This document shows, in pieces, positions 417-9,150 of a stretch of 10,672 bases of DNA. The notes under the pieces are model-generated. The model made no database searches. It was given only the letters and a program-made list of their open reading frames with translations, and had not been told where the DNA came from. Source of the stretch: Chitinophagaceae bacterium (GTDB lineage Bacteria > Bacteroidota > Bacteroidia > Chitinophagales > Chitinophagaceae); assembly GCA_025455245.1 (NCBI GenBank), contig JALOMX010000039.1, positions 1-10,672 of the forward strand, given 5' to 3'. The position numbers and the translations under genes were made by a program. The number at the start of each line of letters is the position of its first letter. The stretch's first letter is position 1.

Positions 417-1658
417 TCAATACTCCGGGCAAATGCCTGTATAGTTTGAAGGGGTTATTTTCTTCAGTTCCTTTTTCAGGGCAGCGCTTACTTTCAATCC
501 ATCGATAAATGCATGCATGCTTTGCTTGTTGATACCGCTTGCCCCGCGGGTCAATTCCTTGAGGGCTTCGTAAGGATTGGGATAGTTTTCGCGGCGCAGT
601 ACGGTTTGAATGGCTTCGGCCACCACTGCCCAGTTATCTTCAAGGTCGGCGGCAATTTTCTTTTCGTTCAGTACAAGCTTATTCAGGCCTTTTTCAATGG
701 AAGCAAGCGCTATCATGGTATGGGCAACGGGGATGCCTAAGTTTTCAAAGTCAATAGGGTTTACCTTATGGGGCATGGCGCTGCTGCCTACTTCGCCTTT
801 TTTGGTTTTTTGTTTGAAATAATCCTGACTGATGTAAGTCCATATATCGCGGCACAGATCAATTAAAATATTATTAATCCGTTTAATGCAATCAAAGTGT
901 GCCGCAAGGTGGTCATAGTGTTCGATTTGGGTGGTAAACTGCATGCGCTGCAAACCGAGGATGTCTTCCACAAAATGGTTGGCAAGTTCAATCCAGTTGG
1001 TTTTGGGATAGGCTATATGGTGCGCATTGAAATTGCCGGTAGCACCGCCGAATTTGGCAGCATACGGTACGTAGCTGAACAGTTGCACCTGATTGTCGAT
1101 TCGTTCTACAAAAACCATGATCTCTTTCCCAAGACGGGTAGGCGATGCAGGCTGACCATGCGTACGGGCAAGCAGGGCAACATCGCGCCACTGAACAGCC
1201 AATTCGTGCAGATGCTTTTGCAGGTTGATGAGCGCCGGCAGGTATTCAAATTCCATGGCATGCTTAAAGCTTAGCGGAATGGCCGTATTGTTTACATCCT
1301 GGCTGGTAAGGCCGAAATGTACAAACTCTTTCACCTCCTCTGCAGCTCCGGTTTTATCAAGTATTTGCTTAATGTAATACTCCACTGCCTTTACATCGTG
1401 GTTGGTTGTTTTTTCTATCTCCTTAATGGCCTGTGCATCTTCGGTTGAGAAGTTTTCCGACAATTCTTTAAGGGCCTTCCTTGCTTTTGCATTCAGGGTG
1501 AAAAACTTTTTATCGGCAAGCAGGAAGAAATATTCAATTTCCACAAGTACCCTGTAACGGATTAAACCGAACTCGCTGAAATAAGGCGCAAGGTTATTTA
1601 CCTGTTTACGATAACGGCCGTCGATGGGCGAAATGGCGGTAAGAGAGGTTAGTTCCAA
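417..1658 (-). CDS. purB: Adenylosuccinate lyase with an apparent 36-residue internal in-frame deletion
   Basis: PurB cleaves SAICAR to AICAR and adenylosuccinate to AMP, releasing fumarate, in the cytoplasm. Family motifs are clear: SPIDGRYR (residues 10-17), TTNHDVKAVEYY (84-95), TSQD (118-121), RTHGQPASPT with catalytic-type His167, TTQIEHYDH (242-250), and the fumarate-lyase signature GSSAMPHKVNP (291-301) with the catalytic-loop serine. The start is TTG at 1658-1656. It gives MELTSLTAISPIDGRY, which matches the family N-terminus, and no ATG lies nearby. The upstream in-frame extension overlaps mqnA and is not coding. The protein is 413 residues; family members are about 450. In E. coli PurB, IDFEN is followed by 36 residues (SEGNLG to STVLRN) before LGVGIG. 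Here IDFEN (302-306) runs straight into LGIP at 740/741. The missing part holds the conserved QRDLTDSTVLR-type substrate-binding segment, so activity is doubtful. The rest reads intact to the stop. Confidence 0.93.
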   Translation of the reverse strand: MELTSLTAISPIDGRYRKQVNNLAPYFSEFGLIRYRVLVEIEYFFLLADKKFFTLNAKARKALKELSENFSTEDAQAIKEIEKTTNHDVKAVEYYIKQILDKTGAAEEVKEFVHFGLTSQDVNNTAIPLSFKHAMEFEYLPALINLQKHLHELAVQWRDVALLARTHGQPASPTRLGKEIMVFVERIDNQVQLFSYVPYAAKFGGATGNFNAHHIAYPKTNWIELANHFVEDILGLQRMQFTTQIEHYDHLAAHFDCIKRINNILIDLCRDIWTYISQDYFKQKTKKGEVGSSAMPHKVNPIDFENLGIPVAHTMIALASIEKGLNKLVLNEKKIAADLEDNWAVVAEAIQTVLRRENYPNPYEALKELTRGASGINKQSMHAFIDGLKVSAALKKELKKITPSNYTGICPEY

Positions 1659-1843: not shown

Positions 1844-2590
1844 TTGGAAAAAAAGATAAGGGTAGGGGCAGTAAGTTATTTGAATACGAAACCATTGTTG
1901 TACGGGATTGAACAAAGTGAAATCCGGAAATACATTGATCTCTCGGTTGATTACCCGAGTGAGGTAGCCCGAAAACTGAAGGGAAATGAAATAGATATTG
2001 GTTTGGTGCCGGTGGCTGTTTTGCCTGAATTGGCAGATTATTACATTGATGCAGATTACTGTATCGGTGCAAACGGACCGGTAAAGAGTGTATCTGTTTT
2101 CAGCGATGTGCCGCTTTCGCAGGTAGAAACCATCTTACTTGATTATCAAAGCCGAACTTCGGTCGCGCTCACCCGCATTTTACTTAAACATCACTGGAAG
2201 CTTTCGCCAAAGCTTGTGCCTGCCTATCCGGGTTATCAGGAAGAAATCAAGGGAACCACGGCAGGCGTGGTCATTGGCGACCGTGCATTTTTGCAGCGCA
2301 AGGTATCCAAAATGGATTACGACCTTGCTGAGGCATGGAAAGACTTTACGGGCTTACCATTTGTCTTTGCAGCATGGGTAGCCAATAAAGAACTGCCTGA
2401 AACTTTTATTGATGCATTTAACATTGCAAACGAATGGGGGCTCAGCAGGATAGATCAAGTTGTGGAGGCAAACCCTTTTCCCCATTACGACCTGCATGAA
2501 TATTATACCCATAATATCAGTTATTTGCTGGATGAAACCAAGCGGCTCGGGATGCAGAAATTCCTTGAATTTTTAAAAGCAGAAAACTGA
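1844..2590 (+). CDS. mqnA: Chorismate dehydratase, futalosine menaquinone pathway
   Basis: MqnA removes water from chorismate to give 3-[(1-carboxyvinyl)oxy]benzoate, the first step of the futalosine route to menaquinone. It acts in the cytoplasm and has a periplasmic-binding-protein-like fold (VitK2_biosynth family). Visible landmarks are RVGAVSYLNTKPL (residues 6-18), typical of MqnA rather than MqnD, DIGLVPVAVLPEL (51-63), the GPVKSVSVFSDVPL segment (78-91), LLDYQSRTS (98-106) and VIGDRAFL (133-140). The start is TTG at 1844; the frame is open further upstream, but the homologous region begins at EKKIRVGAV and no suitable ATG exists. The 248-residue length is normal. It is divergent from purB, and the phosphorylase gene follows after 108 bp. 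No other mqn gene is in the window. Confidence 0.9.
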   Translation: MEKKIRVGAVSYLNTKPLLYGIEQSEIRKYIDLSVDYPSEVARKLKGNEIDIGLVPVAVLPELADYYIDADYCIGANGPVKSVSVFSDVPLSQVETILLDYQSRTSVALTRILLKHHWKLSPKLVPAYPGYQEEIKGTTAGVVIGDRAFLQRKVSKMDYDLAEAWKDFTGLPFVFAAWVANKELPETFIDAFNIANEWGLSRIDQVVEANPFPHYDLHEYYTHNISYLLDETKRLGMQKFLEFLKAEN

Positions 2591-8389: not shown

Positions 8390-8508
8390 GAAATACGAAA
8401 TACGAAATACGAAATATGAAATATGAAATATGAAATAAGAAATAAGAAATAAGAAATAAGAAATAAGGAATAAGAAATAAGGAATAAGAAATGAGGAATA
8501 AGAAAGTA
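8390..8508 (+). repeat. Heptanucleotide tandem array between thyA and folA (17 units)
   Basis: Seventeen consecutive 7-bp units fill 119 bp, starting 4 bp after the thyA stop. The order is GAAATAC x3 (8390-8410), GAAATAT x3 (8411-8431), GAAATAA x5 (8432-8466), then GGAATAA and GAAATAA alternating with one GAAATGA, ending with GAAAGTA (8502-8508). The variants sit in blocks, as expected from stepwise duplication of neighbouring units. Because 7 is not a multiple of 3, the array avoids stops on the minus strand and creates spurious hydrophobic reading frames there. No inverted symmetry or promoter box is evident. Confidence 0.92.
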
Positions 8509-8533
8509 TAAATGGGAATTATAAAGGAGTAAC

Positions 8534-8568
8534 AAATCACGAATTTCAAATTTCGAATCTCAAATCTC
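8534..8568 (+). repeat. Second heptamer run just upstream of folA
   Basis: Five 7-bp units precede the folA start: AAATCAC, GAATTTC, AAATTTC, GAATCTC and AAATCTC. The last ends 10 bp before the TTG. The words differ from those of the 8390-8508 array but the period is the same. The run occupies the stretch where a folA ribosome-binding region would lie. Confidence 0.7.
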
Positions 8569-8578
8569 AAAAAATAAA

Positions 8579-9092: not shown

Positions 9093-9108
9093 CCTGTCGG
9101 CAGACAGG
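9093..9108. repeat. Small perfect palindromic hairpin after folA
   Basis: CCTGTC (9093-9098) pairs perfectly with GACAGG (9103-9108) around a GGCA tetraloop, 16 bp after the folA stop. No T tract follows; instead the hexamer repeat begins. It could be a mobile REP-like palindrome or a weak terminator; the sequence alone does not decide. Confidence 0.55.
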
Positions 9109-9150
9109 GTTGAGGTTGAGGTTAAGGTTGAGGTTAAGGTTGAGGTTGAG
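9109..9150 (+). repeat. Hexanucleotide tandem repeat downstream of folA (7 units)
   Basis: Seven 6-bp units follow the hairpin directly: GTTGAG, GTTGAG, GTTAAG, GTTGAG, GTTAAG, GTTGAG and GTTGAG. An additional isolated GGTTGAG lies before the hairpin at 9082-9088, so the palindrome may have been inserted into, or may interrupt, a longer repeat tract. The rest of the gap (9151-9238) shows nothing I can identify. Confidence 0.88.

Follow-up and report, generated by a model that had tools for sequence, protein, structure and literature searches.

The adenylosuccinate lyase gene (purB) of a Chitinophagaceae draft genome lacks, in frame, a block of residues beside its signature motif, and this raises the question of whether the bacterium carries an altered or dead enzyme or whether an ordinary gene was damaged during assembly. 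The analysed stretch of DNA (10,672 nucleotides, hereafter the window) comes from contig 342 of a draft in 417 contigs that is 78.31% complete with 2.17% contamination. Translation of the minus-strand frame 1658-420 gives 413 aa, in which GSSAMPHKVNPIDFEN runs straight into LGIPVAHTMIALAS; the boundary of the deletion is uncertain by one codon (FE/NLG or FEN/LG). The coordinates of purB, the junction and the neighbouring gene are collected in Table 1. Elsewhere in the window, about 16.6 copies of the heptanucleotide GAAATAA lie between thyA and the dihydrofolate reductase gene (8390-8505), and shorter arrays with units of 6-7 bp occur at 1766-1804, 8533-8571 and 9108-9150.

Table 1. Features of the purB region, in window coordinates
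Feature	Position	Strand	Remarks
purB (adenylosuccinate lyase)	417..1658	-	413 aa as assembled; TTG start at 1658; stop at 417-419
Junction FEN/LG (740/741)	738..743	-	36 residues (108 bp) of relatives' PurB missing here
Signature GSSAMPHKVNP	756..788	-	residues 291-301, intact; adjoins the junction on its upstream side
Menaquinone biosynthesis family protein, mqnA-like	1844..2590	+	divergent neighbour of purB; PF02621

Apart from the junction, the protein has the features of its family. Two PurB motifs, the signature GSSxMPxKxNP and THGQxASPT, are present at residues 291-301 and 166-174, respectively. In a phmmer comparison with PDB chains the match was split near residue 306 and 36 residues were skipped, identically in the two chains shown (9bpl_A and 4efc_A), and the Pfam Lyase_1 match (PF00206) stopped at residue 307. 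The ASL_C domain is present (PF08328, 125.5 bits, profile positions 15-115 of 115). The protein scored above the cut-off of NF006764 (548.7 bits vs 446) and slightly below that of TIGR00928 (322.7 vs 326.2), and its top named match was the PurB of Bacteroidetes bacterium CHIT1 (locus L041), with 74% identity in the best segment and 81% over the alignment. The window PurB agrees with the family (NF006764, PRK09285; PF00206 plus PF08328) in sequence outside the junction, in THGQPASPT and GSSAMPHKVNP and in the C-terminal domain, but differs from it by the 36 residues gone after the signature, which include QRDLTDSTVLR.

Relatives' PurB sequences were taken from 109 loci, 29 of them in whole genomes within the genus or family and 80 in GTDB species genomes. 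Counted from THGQ onward these comprise 106 distinct sequences; of the three identical pairs, two were read as the same genome found twice, and one locus (L021) ends early at a contig end. The spacing from FEN to the N of (L/M)RN was exactly 36 residues in 108 of the 109 loci. The exception, L013, counts 26, as a run of 13 N sits within the segment. This run (L013:2418-2430), in another draft of the family (G034), shows that a second draft had trouble at the same conserved place of purB. Altogether, the translation, the phmmer split and the alignment with relatives agree that the in-frame absence of 36 residues, placed at 740/741 by an earlier sequence-only reading, was located correctly to the residue, and the sum by which that reading arrived at a usual length (413 + 36 = 449) holds. 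The lost part had also been described as conserved, and it is nearly invariant: in the relatives' loci 25 of its 36 columns are at least 97% conserved, compared with 173 of 410 elsewhere, and it holds RDLTDSTVLR.

A degenerate DNA pattern of the deleted junction, in which MPHK may be followed by V or I, and FEN by I, L, M or F but not by V, matched once in the window, where no match was expected by chance. It matched nothing in genome_contigs, from which the window's own genome or a very near one may be left out. With no such match and with the segment intact in 108 of 109 relatives' loci, the junction was rejected as a trait of the lineage. Pseudogene decay was likewise rejected, since the window PurB departs from the relatives at only 2 of 174 near-invariant sites, the relatives' own median being 1.

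As assembled, PurB would very probably be a dead enzyme, because a very conserved stretch including RDLTDSTVLR is gone; the sequence-only reading had already predicted an enzyme that is probably inactive or altered. In the PurB of S. aureus, the phosphate of AMP is bound by Ser306 and Arg310 (PMC2917274); judged by equal spacing rather than by an alignment, these would be the S and R of DSTVLR. AlphaFold models, both built on small alignments (25 and 24 sequences), point the same way. In the short protein pLDDT falls below 50 at residues 287-305 and the next helix begins at 308, whereas the intact relative L041 is helical at 302-324 and 328-334, over the larger part of the stretch, and has block pLDDT values of 88 and 91 across residues 301-320. 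It could be argued that the short PurB still works, either as a new kind of lyase or with altered specificity, and dispenses with the phosphate-binding stretch, given that the frame is kept, that the catalytic signature and the C-terminal domain are intact and that the score exceeds the NF006764 cut-off. Against this stand the conservation of the lost columns, the poorly modelled segment where the intact relative has helices, the TIGR00928 score just under its cut-off and the failure of the junction pattern to match anything in genome_contigs. We therefore give hardly any credence to this reading, and a new working PurB variant is very unlikely.

If the enzyme were dead, AMP would have to be supplied in another way. 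Searches of the draft turned up neither a second purB nor the missing segment at another place, although at 78% completeness such absences are weak evidence. The draft has a full-length purA and, at the edge of a contig, purC; purH was not found, which at this completeness proves nothing. Hpt scored over its family cut-off, but it feeds only IMP, and the conversion of IMP to AMP still needs PurB. Adenine phosphoribosyltransferase (Apt, TIGR01090) reached its cut-off in none of the 10 genomes of the genus, a weak test because just 6 of 14 control genomes reach it; weak matches occurred in 7 of the 10, the best at 26.6 bits vs a cut-off of 185.85. Without Apt, the supply of AMP is expected to run through PurA and PurB. 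The suggestion that a biological deletion would be covered by salvage or by a second gene copy was not borne out within the reach of these searches.

Among the other 9 genus genomes, 4 likewise gave no PurB match (G001, G002, G003 and G005), yielding a fumarase-like match or none. Loss of purB throughout the genus was considered and set aside, as three of the four are 61-79% complete; G002, at 97%, is left unexplained. By eye, the neighbour of mqnA in G002 and G003 reads as an ExbB/ExbD-like pair instead of purB.

These data bear on the possibility that a recent 108-bp microhomology deletion really occurred in the sampled population and produced a null PurB allele, whose carriers would use adenine or adenosine from their neighbours or would be a dying minority that dominates the reads. 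Microhomology deletion is an ordinary mutation, and this one is clean, in frame and free of Ns. Its ends fall on a shared Asn codon with few matching bases around it. In this respect the direct repeats proposed earlier (EN and RN, each followed by LG) stood in part: a few bases at a single Asn codon are indeed shared, but the repeat is weaker than supposed, as RN is followed by Ile in 79 and by Leu in only 16 of the 109 relatives' loci. The genus genomes that lack a PurB match, among them the nearly complete G002, and the missing purH would fit such a loss. On the other hand, purA and purC are present, the rest of purB is undecayed, the low completeness of three of the four PurB-less genomes makes their absences mean little, and the genus shows no Apt over the cut-off, weak as that test is. 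A real deletion of this kind is accordingly held to be unlikely, though it is the chief competitor of an artefact. Somewhat less likely still is that the phosphate-binding stretch is really missing from the PurB of an environmental Chitinophagaceae population whose genus has no recognised Apt, and that this population obtains AMP by an unrecognised route or with a lyase that works without the stretch.

Other lesions in the same draft were sought in 60 of its 417 contigs, of which 51 were readable and 9 masked. These contigs were picked mostly by contig number; six were matches from earlier searches, and none of the six is a lesion contig. For comparison, 1.2 Mb of a one-contig relative (G008) was used. 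In the draft, an exact tandem duplication of 26 bp (L186:338-392, G000:C338) interrupts dnaE in the region of its PHP domain and splits it across two frames. An ABC transporter, MsbA-like by a best NCBIfam match that is below the cut-off, is broken in its ATPase domain by an exact 25-bp tandem duplication (L156:2692-2741, G000:C4). A PfkB-family sugar kinase, for which the best NCBIfam match was fructokinase (again below the cut-off), is missing about 88 nt that G008 has, with a change of frame at about position 9860 of L203 (G000:C359). In Pfam searches dnaE, the transporter and the kinase each continue in another frame. The gene dnaE is essential in bacteria generally, and its lesion is therefore hard to accept as real, which also counts against a real deletion in purB.

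In an ortholog comparison of the draft with G008, 120 reciprocal pairs were obtained, 58 of them at ≥50% identity (16,265 aligned residues). Internal gaps of at least 10 residues numbered 29 on the side of the draft and 22 on the side of G008, most of which, on reading, were ORF ends, poor matches, ORFs cut by contig ends or ORFs extended past the true start. The gap in PurB was the sole one flanked on each side by 30 aligned residues at ≥70% identity, and no second in-frame deletion with good flanks was found among the compared pairs. Frame breaks were searched for separately from the gaps, in 55 pairs. Of the four lesion sizes (108, 88, 26 and 25), one is in frame, which is near chance, even though purB was the case from which the comparison started.

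The excess of such lesions in the draft was then weighed against G008. Exact tandem duplications with a unit of at least 20 occurred twice in 360,167 readable bases of the draft and once in 1,195,000 bases of G008, where the single case is a multiple of a 16-nt multi-copy repeat; none was found in 540,160 bases of the 80 relatives' purB-neighbourhood loci. When the unit was lowered to at least 15 and N runs were set aside, 2 duplications (units 25 and 26) in 370,839 bases of the draft stood against 5 (units 16-19) in 1,195,000 of G008, so that the densities were similar. Three of the five in G008 lie outside ORFs of 100 aa and one close to the beginning of an ORF of 328 aa. The fifth, an exact 16-bp tandem duplication (L244:2839-2876), sits by our own reading where a gene without a Pfam match changes frame. 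The reverse comparison gave a small frame jump in G008 in 1 of 49 pairs. In L255:6936-7919 of G008, the frame of a Cys/Met-metabolism enzyme covers only profile positions 2-222 of 381, and this gene may be interrupted. Because G008 shows both a gene-breaking 16-bp duplication and the frame jump, the draft of the window is not alone in having lesions that break genes, and its excess amounts to few events. In both genomes the lesions may have a technical origin, or in both a natural one.

Taken together, an assembly or consensus artefact in an ordinary purB is the most likely reading of the 108-bp absence, and we consider it probable. It is favoured because other conserved genes of the draft, dnaE included, carry short duplications and a deletion, because the rest of purB is as undecayed as that of its relatives, because the junction matches nothing in genome_contigs, and because no Apt exceeds the cut-off in the genus, weak as that test is. 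Assembly error had earlier been named as a real alternative to a biological deletion; given the other short lesions of the draft, it has become the better reading. In that case purB would be ordinary and intact in the organism, with two of its stretches joined about one read-length too short in the assembly, and the lesions of the draft would share a technical cause, such as a wrong join, a low-coverage chimeric read or a consensus error. Cooley and Wright (2024) describe many bacterial pseudogenes as assembly errors tied to assembler, platform and coverage (PMC11017572). The present case resembles those spurious pseudogenes in that the draft is fragmented and the lesions strike genes that are conserved otherwise, but the errors described there are frameshifts and internal stops (PMC11017572), whereas purB has an in-frame deletion.

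Several points temper the preference for an artefact. The sample behind it is small, and this limits the case: the pairs at ≥50% identity are few, as are the residues aligned in them. The gene-breaking 16-bp duplication in G008 also lowers the probability of an artefact and raises that of a real deletion. Moreover, a de Bruijn assembler is not expected to join two sequences over only a few shared bases, whereas a deletion between such bases, as noted above, needs nothing unusual.

If the artefact reading holds, the true PurB of the organism would have about 449 aa and be an adenylosuccinate lyase like any other. If, on the contrary, the deletion is real, the bacterium would be one that is giving up the normal path from IMP to AMP. 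For now, the locus calls for caution, since clean in-frame deletions are possible in key enzymes of draft genomes and are missed by checks for frameshifts and stop codons.
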